NCBI GenBank assembly: GCA_023265595.1
Contig: JAHFSU010000010.1
Span: 1 to 56,135, forward strand
Length of the DNA stretch: 56,135 nt
Direction of reading: 5' to 3'
From: Deltaproteobacteria bacterium
GTDB lineage: Bacteria > UBA10199 > SPLOWO2-01-44-7
Made by a program: the position numbers and the translations under genes. The first letter of the stretch is position 1. Each line of letters starts with the position of its first letter. The notes under the pieces were generated by a model that was not told the origin of the DNA, made no database searches, and worked only from the letters and a program-made list of their open reading frames with translations. Below are positions 27,581 to 34,278 of this stretch, piece after piece.

Positions 27581-28327
27581 TTATCTTGAAGTCAATCGGT
27601 GAAATTTTTTTGGAATGCCGAAAAGGTTCATAAAGGCGCTAAAACCTCTCAACCCCAACTCCTTGAGACGCAAGATATAATGATGGGTCTCCTGCAAAAT
27701 CATTTCGGGGCGAATGGAATCGCTTAAACCGGCGATCTCCTCTTTGTTTGGGGAGACCTGCATCCAACGATGGATCATCGGCTCATCCACCTCCATGTGA
27801 AATTGAAGCCCATAGACATTTTCGCCATATCGGAAGGCCTGATTTTCGCAAAAAGGGGAACGAGCTAAATGCATGGCCCCTTTCGGCATTTCAAAGGTAT
27901 CTCCATGCCACTGAAACATCTTTTCCGTCGGGCCAAAATGGGAAAAAATCGGATCGGATCGGCCGGCATCGGTTACTTGCAGATCATACCAACCGATCTC
28001 TTTGGTCGGATTTCGCCCGACTTTCGCACCCAACGCTTTTGCAATCAGTTGGGCCCCGAGACAGATTCCCAAAATGGGGAGATTTTTGGTCAACGCACTT
28101 TGAATCAGTTCTATTTCATGATTCAAATGGGGATGTTTGTCGGTTTCGTCGACGTTCATCGGGCCGCCCAAAATAACAAGCCCATCGTAACCTTCTAAAT
28201 CCTGTTTTTCATTGGGATAGCGCCCAAAGTTGGCGTACTTGATCCGAAAACCGTGATCCTTGATCAAGGGGTTCAGGGTTCCCAATAATTCATGAGCGAC
28301 ATGCTGACAGACAAGAATACGTTTCAT
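27581..28327 (-). CDS. class I glutamine amidotransferase (GMP synthase-like)
   Basis: 248 aa. Nucleophile elbow ILGICLGAQ and the His/Glu pair in GLQFHMEVDE complete a class I GATase triad. Stand-alone proteins of this type transfer or hydrolyse glutamine amide for unassigned acceptors. ATG overlaps the spoVR stop (ATGA), so it is in the prkA-yhbH-spoVR operon. Confidence 0.85.
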   Translation of the reverse strand: MKRILVCQHVAHELLGTLNPLIKDHGFRIKYANFGRYPNEKQDLEGYDGLVILGGPMNVDETDKHPHLNHEIELIQSALTKNLPILGICLGAQLIAKALGAKVGRNPTKEIGWYDLQVTDAGRSDPIFSHFGPTEKMFQWHGDTFEMPKGAMHLARSPFCENQAFRYGENVYGLQFHMEVDEPMIHRWMQVSPNKEEIAGLSDSIRPEMILQETHHYILRLKELGLRGFSAFMNLFGIPKKFHRLTSR

Positions 28328-29796
28328 GGTCTCGCTTCGTGATGCTCCGATCCGTCAAAGGACAAAATTTTGGCGACACCGTCCAAAGTGGTGTCGATAT
28401 GAACCGGCCGTTTCCATATCCGATGGAGGGCTTTCAATGTCTCTTTGGCCCAATCCATCTTGAGATCGATCCCTTCATGGATGTGTTTGAGCATCAATTC
28501 ACCATGGTTTTTATAATTGGCATCGACAACATGGATGATCGGATAGCCAAAGTTGGTCAGCTGAAAAAGGAGCTGCTTTTTGATTTTGTCAAACTCGCGG
28601 CTCGCAATTTCATAACGGTCGGCGCTCACATTGAATGCAAAGACAAATAGTTTGTGTTTGGCGCAAAACTCGGGAGTCAAAAATTCATCGATGAACATCA
28701 CATCGTTGTAGAGTTTGCGCACCTCGAAAATTTTCTGGCGCCCAAGCCCCAGTTTCCGATCCCACTCTTTGCGCACACGCATATCGGTGCATTCATTGTA
28801 TTCCTTTCCAAATTGCCCCTTGTTCCAGCGCTCTTCAATATCCCGAAACAATTCGAGACCGATCTTGTAAGGATTCAGTTGGCCCGGCTGCATCGAAACG
28901 GTGCCGGAATGGTGGTCGGCATAATCGATAAATTCAGAGGGCTTTAGCGCCCGCTCGGTCATGATTTTGCTGTGGTGAAAACAGGCCCAACCTTCGTTCA
29001 ATATTTTCGTCTGCGCCTGTGGGGCAAAATAGTAGGCCTCTTCGCGGACAATGGAAAGCATGTCCCTTTCCCAATGTTCCAACGGCGCCTGTTCGAGCAA
29101 AAAGCCGATCACATCTTTTTGCGGTTTGGCCGGAATTTTGTGGGATAACACCCGCTCTTCTTCCATAGCCTTCTGTTGCGCGTCCAGAAATTCGGGTGGG
29201 TTTACATATTTTTCGAGATACGGCTTTGTTTTGATGCGCGGCACTTCCATGGAAGGCTCGACAATTTCCCTTGCAACGTGCGGCGCAATGAGCAAATTAA
29301 AATCGATCAAATTTTCGATGGAGAGGCAGGCATCGACAAACGATTCGATCGGATCCATCCCATAACGATCGACAAAACGGAGGGCGCGGGTACGGTGGTT
29401 GGCCATTTCATCCATCATTTTCCGGTTGGTGTTTGAAAAATAGACGTTGTTTTTGAAAAAATCGCAGTGGCCGTAAACATGTGCCATCACCATCTTCTGG
29501 TCGACAATATTATTGGAATGCAACAGATAGGCGTAGCAAGGGTCGTTGTTGATCACCATTTCGTAGATTTTGGAAAGCCCATAGGCATACGATTTGGAAA
29601 GCCGCTCGTATTCCATGCCAAACCGCCAATGCGGATAACGATTGGGAAAGCCGCCATAGGAGGCCACCATGTTGATCTGGTTCCAGTCGAGCATTTCAAA
29701 GATCACCTCAAAAAAATCGAGACCGGCCTCTTTCGCATAACCTTTGATTTCTTCCTGAAGCTTCTGCAATTCCGGCGGGAGGGATGTTGATTTCAT
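28324..29796 (-). CDS. SpoVR family protein
   Basis: 490 aa, full family length. Carries conserved SpoVR stretches (EGWACFHHSKIM, NPYKIGLELFRDIEERW, YKNHGELMLKH). SpoVR/YcgB genes sit with yhbH/yeaH and prkA/yeaG in many genomes and act in stress or stationary-phase responses; the biochemical role is unsettled. ATG directly follows the yhbH stop. Confidence 0.92.
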   Translation of the reverse strand: MKSTSLPPELQKLQEEIKGYAKEAGLDFFEVIFEMLDWNQINMVASYGGFPNRYPHWRFGMEYERLSKSYAYGLSKIYEMVINNDPCYAYLLHSNNIVDQKMVMAHVYGHCDFFKNNVYFSNTNRKMMDEMANHRTRALRFVDRYGMDPIESFVDACLSIENLIDFNLLIAPHVAREIVEPSMEVPRIKTKPYLEKYVNPPEFLDAQQKAMEEERVLSHKIPAKPQKDVIGFLLEQAPLEHWERDMLSIVREEAYYFAPQAQTKILNEGWACFHHSKIMTERALKPSEFIDYADHHSGTVSMQPGQLNPYKIGLELFRDIEERWNKGQFGKEYNECTDMRVRKEWDRKLGLGRQKIFEVRKLYNDVMFIDEFLTPEFCAKHKLFVFAFNVSADRYEIASREFDKIKKQLLFQLTNFGYPIIHVVDANYKNHGELMLKHIHEGIDLKMDWAKETLKALHRIWKRPVHIDTTLDGVAKILSFDGSEHHEARP

Positions 29797-32193
29797 CTAT
29801 TTTCCCTTCCCCAAAAATTGTTTGATCGAAGGGACAATCGCATCTTTATTCGGGATCTTCGAGATAACCAGTTTATCATGGGTTGCAAAACGGCCCTGCA
29901 AATCCTTCAAAAATTGACCGCTGCCGTATTCGCTTTCCACCTGACCGTAGCAAAAAATATTGCAGAGCGGAAAAAATTTATCCTCCAGAAGTTTCAGACA
30001 CTCCTCCGTATCGTTGCCCGACCAGTTGTCGCCGTCCGAAAAATGGAACGGGTAGACATTCCATTCGTTAAGATCGTACTGCTCCTCCAACATTTTAAGA
30101 CAGAGTTTGTAGGCCGAAGAAATAATCGTCCCGCCCGATTCGCGCGTGTGAAAAAAGGTTTCCCGATCGACTTCGCGGGCAACGGCATCGTGAATAATAT
30201 AGCGTGTTTGCAGGTTTTGGTATTGCGAACGAAGCCAAGTGTCGATCCAGAAGGTCTCGATCCGCACAATCTCTTTTTGTTCGTTGCCCATGGAATTGTG
30301 GCTTAAAACACCATCCACCAAATAATTATGGTACCCTTCTACTTCAAAATCATAAACCTCTACCTCTTCAACTTTTTTTTCAATAGCACGCACCTGACAT
30401 ATCAATAAAGATTCTTGCCGTGTTCTTAGTAAAACGTTTTTTTGGTTTTCGGCGATGTTCTCCTCAAGCAAATTATTTAAACTACAACGCGTTATGGAGT
30501 TTCTGGCAAGATCATACAGTTTGCCCTCTAATTTTGTTCGTGTTGCATTGTCTTGAAATAACGCTTTGATGTTTTCTGCCGGAATATAACGGCTTCTGGC
30601 GCCATCCCCTTTTGCATTTTCCTGATCCACTAATTTTTCCAATTTTGCTTGTTTAGAGCGGCAGGAAAATCCGATATGTTTGGCGAACAACAAGGCATCT
30701 TTAGCATTCAAAACAAGACGGTAATACTCTCCTTCTTTTATACTTGTTCCTGCAATGCGATGATTCTCCTGCCGGTAAGGGGTAATGCGTGCACGCATGC
30801 CCCAATAAGAAAGCATGAGTTTGATTTGTTTGGCCAACGGCAAACTGGAGGTCAAAAATTCAACAGCATGATCGGCCAATGTCCCCTCTGCATCGAAGAA
30901 ACCTCTCAAAAAGGCGGCTCGCACTTTTGGGGATTGCAAAAAAATGGAGGGTTCCACATAACGTTTGGGCGATTTTTCGAGAAGACTTGGGAACGACTTC
31001 GATAAAAATTCCACAAAAGAAACAGAATTGAAATAAAGACGTTTTCTGTCACTTCTTTTGCGCACCAGTCCTTTCAATCCGAAAGCGGTCGCTGCACAAT
31101 CGGCATAATAATGAAGCCGATTTTCATCTTCATCTGTGATCATCACAAAACGGCTATTTTTCTGTGAATCAAGGGGATCCGTTCTGGTACTCACAAAACC
31201 GTCCCCCAAAATGGCCCCCAACAAATAGGCCTTCGCCTCGTCTAATTTTTCAAGGACATTCCCCTTTTGAGCATCACAACCAAATTGATTGGCTAAAATA
31301 AGCAGGTCACCCTTTCGGATTTCTTCGGCTCTTTTTTCCAATAGGGAATCCTTTTGTTCGTCATAGATAAAATACCTGTGTTTTGGTGTCACCCGCAACG
31401 TGACATGATCTTCGGTTTTGATGAGTAGAGTTTCTGATACTCTATATTTAAATGTTTTGGTGACTTTTGAGTGAACCTTTTTGCGTTGAACAATATCTAC
31501 AGTACAAACCCTATCACCCGTTTGAATATCTTTAATATCTTTATAACTCCCATTTGCCATCTCGACAAAATGTCCTGCTGTATGACATCCCGATACATCT
31601 AATAAAAAGAAGACGACGGCGCGGCTTTGCGGTTTTTTCACCTCTTTCCATGTCCGATAAATGCGGTCCTCCCGAACCGGAACAATTTTCGGATTTTTCG
31701 GATCGTAGGTGCCGGAGAGAATCTGCCGGCGCAATGCCTTTTTGTAGGTCCGTTTGAAATGTCTTAGGGATTCCGGCCCGCTCGGAGAAACGCCGGTGTA
31801 TTTGGTGTGTTGGGTGATAATGTCCTGATCCCCCTTCGGCTCAATTTTAGGAAGTTCCAATTCCTCCCCCAAAATATCGGCAAGCTCCTCAAGGCTGACC
31901 TCCACCTCCATGATATGTTCGCCCGGCATATTGCCGGCCTTCGCGGCCCCTTCTCCCTCTTTTCCCTCAAGAGGCTCTCCGGCCTCCCCTTCCCCTTGGC
32001 CGATACCCCCCTGATTTTTGGGACCAAAAATAAATTTGGGAATTTCAATTTGGGGAAGCGGGATACTGACGAGATCTTCCCCTTTTTTGCCGATCATCTC
32101 GCCGTGCGACATGAACTTCTTGAGCTCCCTCTTGATTTGTCCCCGAAGGATTTGATGAAAACGATTGAGGTCCTTTTCTATTTTTAATGCCAT
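29797..32193 (-). CDS. yhbH: YhbH/YeaH (DUF444) VWA protein interrupted by an intein
   Basis: 798-aa precursor; removing residues 203-633 leaves a 367-aa YhbH, near the family size. The N-extein has the acidic/Gly-rich region and ends LLDVSG. The C-extein resumes SMGNEQKEIV, restoring the MIDAS motif DVSGSMG. Other VWA metal-site elements (SGGTIISSAY, HFSDGDNWSGND) are in the C-extein. YhbH works with the PrkA kinase and SpoVR in stress adaptation. The frame is intact throughout, so the intein looks functional. Gaps of 15 bases to prkA and 0 to spoVR support one operon. Confidence 0.93.
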   Translation of the reverse strand: MALKIEKDLNRFHQILRGQIKRELKKFMSHGEMIGKKGEDLVSIPLPQIEIPKFIFGPKNQGGIGQGEGEAGEPLEGKEGEGAAKAGNMPGEHIMEVEVSLEELADILGEELELPKIEPKGDQDIITQHTKYTGVSPSGPESLRHFKRTYKKALRRQILSGTYDPKNPKIVPVREDRIYRTWKEVKKPQSRAVVFFLLDVSGCHTAGHFVEMANGSYKDIKDIQTGDRVCTVDIVQRKKVHSKVTKTFKYRVSETLLIKTEDHVTLRVTPKHRYFIYDEQKDSLLEKRAEEIRKGDLLILANQFGCDAQKGNVLEKLDEAKAYLLGAILGDGFVSTRTDPLDSQKNSRFVMITDEDENRLHYYADCAATAFGLKGLVRKRSDRKRLYFNSVSFVEFLSKSFPSLLEKSPKRYVEPSIFLQSPKVRAAFLRGFFDAEGTLADHAVEFLTSSLPLAKQIKLMLSYWGMRARITPYRQENHRIAGTSIKEGEYYRLVLNAKDALLFAKHIGFSCRSKQAKLEKLVDQENAKGDGARSRYIPAENIKALFQDNATRTKLEGKLYDLARNSITRCSLNNLLEENIAENQKNVLLRTRQESLLICQVRAIEKKVEEVEVYDFEVEGYHNYLVDGVLSHNSMGNEQKEIVRIETFWIDTWLRSQYQNLQTRYIIHDAVAREVDRETFFHTRESGGTIISSAYKLCLKMLEEQYDLNEWNVYPFHFSDGDNWSGNDTEECLKLLEDKFFPLCNIFCYGQVESEYGSGQFLKDLQGRFATHDKLVISKIPNKDAIVPSIKQFLGKGK
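30295..31587 (-). mobile_element. LAGLIDADG intein in YhbH, 431 aa
   Basis: Starts with Cys203 (CHTAGHFVEMANGSYKD, block A), has block B VTPKH (268-272), two LAGLIDADG motifs (YLLGAILGDG at about 323-332; FLRGFFDAEG at 428-437), block F YDFEVEGYHNYLVDG and ends VLSHN followed by Ser. All residues for class 1 splicing are present (Cys1, TxxH-type block B, His-Asn end, +1 Ser). The +1 Ser is the third MIDAS residue of the host. The endonuclease motifs suggest it can still home. Confidence 0.95.
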
Positions 32194-32208: not shown

Positions 32209-34278
32209 CTAGAGTGGCTTGCGCTCTTTGATATCGCCGCGAGCAAAAATGGAAGCCACATAATGCAGCACATCGGTGGCGCAGGTTTCGCAATAGCCGC
32301 AGTTTTTAATCAGGCGCGATTTCACCACATCGATTTTTTCCTGCGTATCTTTATCGACCACATTGGAAACAAGGCTCGTTAACTTGATGGTATCTTTCTG
32401 GTCTTCAAACAGTTTGAGTTCCAGCGCTTTTTGCAGGCGTTCGTTCGTCTTGTAATCGAAGCGCTTGCCCTCGAGTGACAAGGCCCCGATGTAATTCATG
32501 ATCTCGCGCCGAAAATCATCTTTGCGCGATTCCGGAATCTCAATTTTTTCTTCGATCGAGCGCATCAGACGTTCATCGGGCTCTTCATCGCGGCCGGTGT
32601 AGCGGTTACGCACTTTCTCGCGCTGTGTGTAGGCCTTCACATGATCGATGTAATTGCCGCAAAGTCTCTGAATCGCATCTTCATCGGCAGAAATGGCGCG
32701 TTGCACTTCGTTTTTCACGGTATCATCATATTCCTCTTTCACCAGATTGATCATGTCGCGATATTTTTTCCGTTGTTCCTCGCTCTTCATATGGGGATGA
32801 TGTTTCAAGCCCCCTTCCAGTTCATTCAAAACCATAAAGGGGTTGACACAACTTCCGGCAACATCCGACACCAGCGCATTCGAAATTTTATCCTGAATAT
32901 AGCGGGGGCTCAATCCATCCAACCCTTCGCGGATGGCCTCTTTGCGAAGTTCCTTGACATTGTCTTCAGTAAAACCGGGCATTGTTTTGCCGTCGTAGAG
33001 TTTTAATTTTTGTATGAGGCTCAAATTGGCTTTTTTCGGCTCTTCAAGCCGGGTCAAAATGGCCCACATGGCCGCCGTTTCAATAGTGTGGGGCGCAATA
33101 TGTTTGGCTTTGACTTTGTCGGAGCCATAATCTTTTTCGTAAATTTTTACCTCTTCGTGCAATTTGGTGATGTAGGGGATATCGATTTTGATGGTGCGGT
33201 CGCGCAAGGCCTCCATATATTCATTATTTTGCAATTTCCGGTATTCGGCCTCGTTAGTGTGCCCCAAAATAACTTCATCAATATAAGTATGGGCGAATTT
33301 TTTCGGTTTCACCACATGTTCTTGCGAGGCACCCAAAAGATCGTACAAAAAGGCGACATCCAATTTTAAAACTTCGATGAATTCGACAATGCCACGGTTG
33401 GCAATATTAAACTCACCGTCGAAATTGAATGCCCGCGGATCGGAGTCGGAACCGTATTCGGCAATTTTGCGGTAATTGATATCGCCGGTCAGTTCTGTCG
33501 AATCTTGGTTTTTCTCGTCTTTGGGCTGGAAAGTGCCGATGCCGATACGATCTTTTTCAGACAAGACAATCCGGCGCGCTCGGATGTGATTCATTACTTT
33601 GCTGAAATCCCCTTTGTAAACATTGACGAGCTCGCGGAAAATGAACCGGCATGAGGGGCAAAGCTCATTGGTCACGACAATTTTGTCTTCTTCCGACAAA
33701 TTTGCGTTGATCGTTTGCAAAACCTGCTGTCGCAATTCTTTGGGGAGGAGATTCAACGGCTCTTCATGCATGGGGCAATGGATCTCTTCTTGAGATCCAA
33801 AAATGTTGCGCCCATCTTCCAGCCCTTTTTTAACCCAAGTGAAAGAATAAAGGGCCCCCTCGGGAGTTCTCGAATAGGCCTCAATCCCCTTTTTGAGAAG
33901 GCGGACAATGGTTGATTTGGCACCACCTACGGGCCCATGCAAAAGAATAATTCTTTTTTCGGGGCCGTAACGGCGCGCAGCGGCTTGAAACGTATTAACC
34001 AGTTTCATCAAAGGGAGATCGATGCCAAAGAGGGCATCTTTGCCTTTGTCGATCGGGTCTTCAAAAAATTTATAGTGAACGATTTTCTTTTTATATTCGG
34101 TGTATTCCTCAAACCCATAACTCAAGAGCATGTCGTAGACTCTTTGAAAGGCGGAGCGGGCCACTTTTGGATTTTTTTCGACAATCTGGAGATAATCCAA
34201 AAATCCCCCCTCCCAGATCAAGGATTGGTAGGATTTCGACTCCTGCCAGTCGGCAATAAGACTATTGATTTTAGACAT
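32209..34278 (-). CDS. prkA: PrkA/YeaG serine protein kinase
   Basis: 689 aa, full length. N-terminal AAA-like domain with P-loop [10 protein letters not shown] and the C-terminal PrkA kinase-like domain. First gene of the prkA-yhbH-spoVR operon; YeaG-type proteins take part in nitrogen-starvation and stress responses in enterobacteria. GGGGGG lies 5 bases before ATG 34278. No intein here. Confidence 0.93.

Follow-up and report, generated by a model that had tools for sequence, protein, structure and literature searches.

A putative mobile intein in the MIDAS motif of YhbH, and inteins in the prkA-yhbH-spoVR operon of bacteria and large phages

Results

The window analysed here is a stretch of 56,135 nucleotides from a Deltaproteobacteria bacterium (contig JAHFSU010000010.1), and all features described below lie on its reverse (-) strand. 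The genes of a PrkA AAA+ protein (32209..34278, PF08298/PF06798) and of SpoVR (28324..29796, PF04293, E=2e-134) are intein-free in the window. The open reading frame of yhbH, 29797..32193, has no stops or frame breaks and encodes a precursor of 798 aa with an in-frame intein. Its Pfam match to YhbH (DUF444, PF04285, E=8e-76) comes in two pieces, which flank matches to Intein_splicing (PF14890, E=5e-24) and LAGLIDADG_3 (PF14528, E=1e-14). With NCBIfam the same frame matched the YhbH-family model NF003711 (E=4e-173) and, above the cut-off, the model intein_Cterm (TIGR01443). A domain match by chance is ruled out for E-values of this size.

The N-extein comprises aa 1-202 (31588..32193) and ends in DVSG, the intein aa 203-633 (431 aa, 30295..31587), with a Hint splicing domain and a LAGLIDADG endonuclease, and the C-extein aa 634-798 (29800..30294). 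With the splice points marked by slashes, the junctions read DVSG/CHTAGH and VDGVLSHN/SMGNEQKE. The first splicing nucleophile is Cys203 (31585..31587), block B is TPKH with T269 and H272 (31378..31389), and the intein ends in the penultimate His632 and the terminal Asn633 (30295..30300), followed by Ser634 as the +1 nucleophile (30292..30294). The two LAGLIDADG motifs are LLGAILGDG, aa 324-332, with the catalytic D331 (31198..31224), and LRGFFDAEG, aa 429-437, with D434 and E436 (30883..30909). A comparison of seven inteins at this site showed C203, T269, H272, D331, D434, E436, D615, H632, N633 and S634 to be invariant. The best match in both structure and sequence is PI-PfuI (1dq3), and the predicted structure of the precursor matches PI-PfuI (E=3e-18), TliVMA and I-DmoI. 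On its sequence the insert is confirmed as a full-length intein of the class-1 type, Hint plus LAGLIDADG homing endonuclease, and the coordinates, splicing blocks and two endonuclease motifs given in an earlier note on this DNA were correct.

When the insert is removed no scar is left in the host protein. The joined exteins make 367 aa, and these align gap-free to the YhbH from a genome of the same genus (G001), which is uninterrupted and 92.4% identical. The possibility that the insert is a normal YhbH domain was considered and rejected, as all other YhbH proteins of the class are uninterrupted except that of G019.

The intein divides the MIDAS motif of its host. DVSG (aa 199-202, 31588..31599) is the first half of this motif, and Ser634, the first residue of the C-extein, is the second Ser of DxSxS, so that DVSGSMG is split into DVSG and SMG with the MIDAS Ser as the +1 nucleophile, as the earlier note had described. 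The MIDAS Thr is Thr689 in ESGGT (30127..30129) and the MIDAS Asp is Asp720 in SDGDN (30034..30036), both invariant. None of these residues of DxSxS, Thr and Asp varies among 33 YhbH proteins from phages (D208, S210, S212, T267 and D298 in the numbering of L255). A search of the PDB by sequence found no relative of YhbH. The AlphaFold model of a phage YhbH had as its top PDB matches VWA and Rea1-MIDAS domains, with E-values of 1e-7 to 1e-5; the mean pLDDT of this model is 69.5 overall and mostly 85-94 over residues 200-350, which means that the C-terminal half alone is confident. It appears from the motif and the model that YhbH is a VWA-fold protein with a MIDAS motif DxSxS...T...D, and that it is predicted to bind a metal ion. 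It is a fair inference that a proper MIDAS cannot form in YhbH before splicing, and YhbH activity would then need splicing.

The YhbH intein is rare and scattered among bacteria. In the class of the window, 46 genomes were examined and yhbH was present in 36; two of the 36 carry a YhbH intein, the window genome and G019, which belongs to another family and has it at the same codon. The genomes G001, G003, G004 and G005, of the same genus or the same family as the window genome, are without the intein, and their YhbH extein halves are 80-95% identical. A scan of 84,980 genomes for the intein endings HN/SM[GDE]xxxK turned up this intein in four records from Ktedonobacteria, with YhbH as the only host besides chance matches and no other VWA protein beyond such matches; the scan requires the pattern G-[IVL]-x-x-H-N, so other endings are missed, and genomes very near the window were excluded. 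A search of the Ktedonobacteria found the same-site intein in 6 of 42 scored genomes (G060-G064 and G080). It is not found in G067, the extein halves of which are 92-93% identical to those of G060. Among 400 Chloroflexota the YhbH intein occurs in six, all of them Ktedonobacteria, and some 54 genomes with DUF444 from outside the window class gave no DUF444 protein of intein length. Plasmids and named phages gave just distant inteins and intein-free YhbH. In the yhbH intein of Dictyobacter vulcani (L056, about 740-860) there is a frame break in the endonuclease region that puts the C-extein out of frame, which can be a real loss or an assembly error. We take the class of the window and the Ktedonobacteria to belong to different phyla, because the window class has no phylum-mates among the relatives examined and the Chloroflexota have hundreds of genomes.

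A single-sequence scan of viral contigs gave no YhbH intein, and an alignment scan gave one phage contig with an intein at the same site, the 183-kb L159. Its consecutive genes (L159:1584-9972) are an uninterrupted prkA, a yhbH with intein (DSSG/C...HN/SMD) and a spoVR with intein (EGWS/C...HN/SWWH). Genes for a terminase large subunit (E=2e-26), a processivity factor of DNA polymerase and a DNA ligase identify the contig as phage DNA. Its YhbH intein is no closer to the window intein than the Ktedonobacteria copies are, and L159 is therefore not the direct donor. Counting this contig, the YhbH intein occurs sporadically, and always at one site, in hosts that are far apart (2/36, 6/42 and one phage contig), as expected of a mobile intein.

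The whole prkA-yhbH-spoVR operon is found in large phages, for example LR756511, and other phages have been reported to carry PrkA or SpoVR (PMC8504454). The viral contigs L175-L331 include at least 140 SpoVR loci and at least 119 YhbH loci, often as the complete operon.

In the tree a single clade (support 100/99) contains all seven intact YhbH inteins, apart from the SpoVR and PrkA inteins, and within it they group by host, the window class with 86/67 and the Ktedonobacteria with 100/99. Between the window and the Ktedonobacteria the intein is 42-45% identical and the whole extein 37-38%; for the window and the phage the intein reaches 40% and the extein 34%. Inside each group it is the extein that is more alike, with 53.5% for the intein against 68.7% for the extein between the window and G019, and 70-74% against 79-82% within the Ktedonobacteria, where the endonuclease is as conserved as the splicing part. 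The excess of intein over host identity between the groups is modest by these alignments, because the C-extein by itself, a measure free of the variable N-terminal half, is 41-43% identical between the two groups of bacteria, roughly the value of the intein. As the inteins outpace the exteins in divergence within groups, it is most likely that the YhbH intein moved between the groups after their hosts had split. No co-conversion tract was seen around the insertion, a signal that is short and fades with time, and the extein flanks of the window resemble those of its own family. The event thus either lies too far back or left too short a tract to point to a donor; the acquisition of the window intein may be old.

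The other genes of the operon are invaded as well, and the whole of prkA-yhbH-spoVR is a hotspot of putative inteins, which occupy no fewer than seven sites across its three genes. SpoVR is split at EGWA/C...HN/S in three genomes of the window class (G019, G040 and G017) and in 14 of 42 scored Ktedonobacteria. In the latter class two PrkA sites are also occupied, DPK/C...HN/SQD and MLK/C...HN/CDEK. Two Ktedonobacteria, G063 (L146) and G080 (L147), have inteins in all of prkA, yhbH and spoVR, and in G064 (L145) PrkA is invaded twice and YhbH once. Of the phage contigs, 21 have a SpoVR intein at EG[WH][AS]/C and 14 have one at EMV[IV]N/C, including 10 in which both sites are occupied; grouping of these intein-bearing SpoVR contigs at 90% identity leaves 12 clusters. 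Two more phage contigs have PrkA inteins, at other sites. In the 636-kb phage LR756504, SpoVR contains a mini-intein without endonuclease (L160:4935-6842, NEG/C...HN/C), two codons off the main SpoVR site. In a sample of 80 phage contigs picked by intein-free YhbH, 18, about a fifth, contain SpoVR inteins.

The inteins of the three genes belong to different families in the tree. The SpoVR inteins of the window class group with those of phages (94/91) and not with those of Ktedonobacteria, while phage and bacterial SpoVR exteins are only 40-44% identical. Inteins in yhbH and in spoVR are found together no more often than expected by chance (p=0.38 and 0.16).

Some further features of these inteins were observed. 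The viral contigs with two inteins in one SpoVR, at EMV[IV]N/C and EG[WH]A/C, are L182-L187, L189, L232, L238 and L261. Bacterial SpoVR inteins (L032:1365-4055, L042:1430-4120 and similar ones) have a LacI-like helix-turn-helix stretch (DVA..AGVS..TV.R) between the splicing and endonuclease parts, and this stretch is absent from the SpoVR intein of L159. The window genome has about four other intein-bearing reading frames (G000:C57:43567-44631, C28:4732-5256, C57:77163-78653 and C7:1515-1883), of which one adjoins suf genes (SufB-like).

Discussion

The insert in YhbH is very probably a mobile parasite, a full-length intein of the class-1 type with HINT and LAGLIDADG parts. The residues, the site, the distribution and the tree are observed, and splicing, cleavage and the part of phages as vehicle are what we infer. 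If the conserved chemistry holds, an N-S acyl shift at Cys203 would be followed by a transesterification that passes the chain to Ser634, Asn633 would cyclise, and an O-N shift would yield an ordinary YhbH with the DVSGSMG metal site restored. The endonuclease would cut intein-free yhbH genes at the codons of the MIDAS motif, after which the intein would be copied in, and the phages that bear the operon would be the likeliest vehicle and meeting place. Phages are established carriers of inteins (PMC5050341). The conserved MIDAS codons would make a target that is hard for host and phage to alter, and imprecise loss would kill the protein. Such constraints are the accepted explanation for the position of inteins in active sites, which is an ordinary strategy of these parasites and the rule for inteins (PMC2814812), and the active-site insertion alone is no evidence for a switch.

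The presence in so few yhbH-bearing genomes, the intact endonuclease and the sharing of one site across phyla and with a phage argue for a parasite that moves horizontally. Vertical descent from one shared ancestor, with frequent loss and no horizontal spread, would agree with the grouping of the inteins within the window class and within the Ktedonobacteria, but we find it very unlikely, as the inteins of different groups are at least as alike as their hosts, though they diverge faster within groups, a copy is present in a phage, and the intein is scarce elsewhere, with none among the roughly 54 outside genomes and only the Ktedonobacteria among the Chloroflexota. An inert relic, which has lost homing and persists solely since precise deletion is rare, is also unlikely, if less strongly so. 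The failure to detect a co-conversion tract and the frame break in the Dictyobacter vulcani copy would suit it, and the window intein is so far from its nearest relative (53.5% identity) that its arrival may be old. Against a relic, the window copy and the six other intact copies compared retain both catalytic acidic residues of the endonuclease, and the window reading frame is unbroken.

The earlier note had gone further and suggested that the intein, beyond being a parasite, may be a post-translational switch. Stress such as oxidation, metals or temperature would then hold or release the splicing of YhbH and, where they are invaded, of SpoVR and PrkA, and so control the PrkA-YhbH-SpoVR system. 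The insertion point would tie activity to splicing, the host system is induced by stress or stationary phase (PMC3188799), other inteins are known to splice conditionally (PMC6195587, PMC7360933, PMC5790916), and in some genomes all three genes of the operon are interrupted. The part of the claim that makes the intein regulatory was nevertheless not supported. Two of 36 genomes is a sporadic presence with close relatives lacking the intein, the endonuclease is intact and the site is shared between phyla and with a phage, while the inteins of the three genes come from different families and do not occur together beyond chance in yhbH and spoVR. The signs of domestication, lineage-wide retention or loss of the endonuclease, which are supporting and not strictly defining, were not seen, and no clear stress phenotype resulted when prkA was deleted in Rhizobium etli (PMC3188799). 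A switch is thus very unlikely. We give equally little credit, or slightly less, to the broader idea that inteins in one, two or three of the subunits would act as timers or sensors keeping PrkA-YhbH-SpoVR inactive until splicing is allowed, in bacteria as well as in large phages.

As far as the searched literature goes, the mobile YhbH intein is of a familiar type at an unreported site. No report of inteins in YhbH or SpoVR was found in the open-licence literature, and a mention elsewhere is possible; for intein and PrkA, the open-licence papers that matched were on unrelated subjects, judging by title and abstract. The intein adds a site in a metal-binding VWA protein. The part of most specialist interest is the operon-wide hotspot shared with phages. 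With at least seven intein sites in just three genes, one operon common to bacteria and many large phages makes the intein traffic between them directly testable, and the cost of multiple inteins within one complex can be tested directly in prkA-yhbH-spoVR as well.

The window intein is like PI-PfuI (1dq3), TliVMA (7qss) and PI-SceI in its Hint domain, Cys1, block B TxxH, His-Asn end, +1 nucleophile and two-motif LAGLIDADG endonuclease. It differs from them in its host, a VWA/MIDAS protein of a stress operon, and the identity is about 20% or less. The active-site inteins VMA-a/b, MCM-a and RFC (PMC2814812, PMC10643990) are likewise inserted at the most conserved functional residues of their hosts, but these target a nucleotide-binding loop and the window intein the metal-ion loop of the MIDAS. 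Like the inteins described here, those of mycobacteriophages (TerL and others, PMC5050341) are several, lie in phage genes at functional motifs and may pass to bacteria. In one survey nucleic-acid binding was a property of every phage intein host and of about 85% of the bacterial ones (PMC5050341). All mycobacteriophage intein hosts bind nucleic acid, whereas prkA-yhbH-spoVR is a three-gene operon with no known nucleic-acid role, found in both phages and bacteria. Inteins with conditional splicing, as in Mycobacterium DnaB and SufB and in Pyrococcus RadA, also split an essential motif, so that activity hangs on splicing; compared with these, the distribution and the endonuclease of the window intein fit a mobile parasite.
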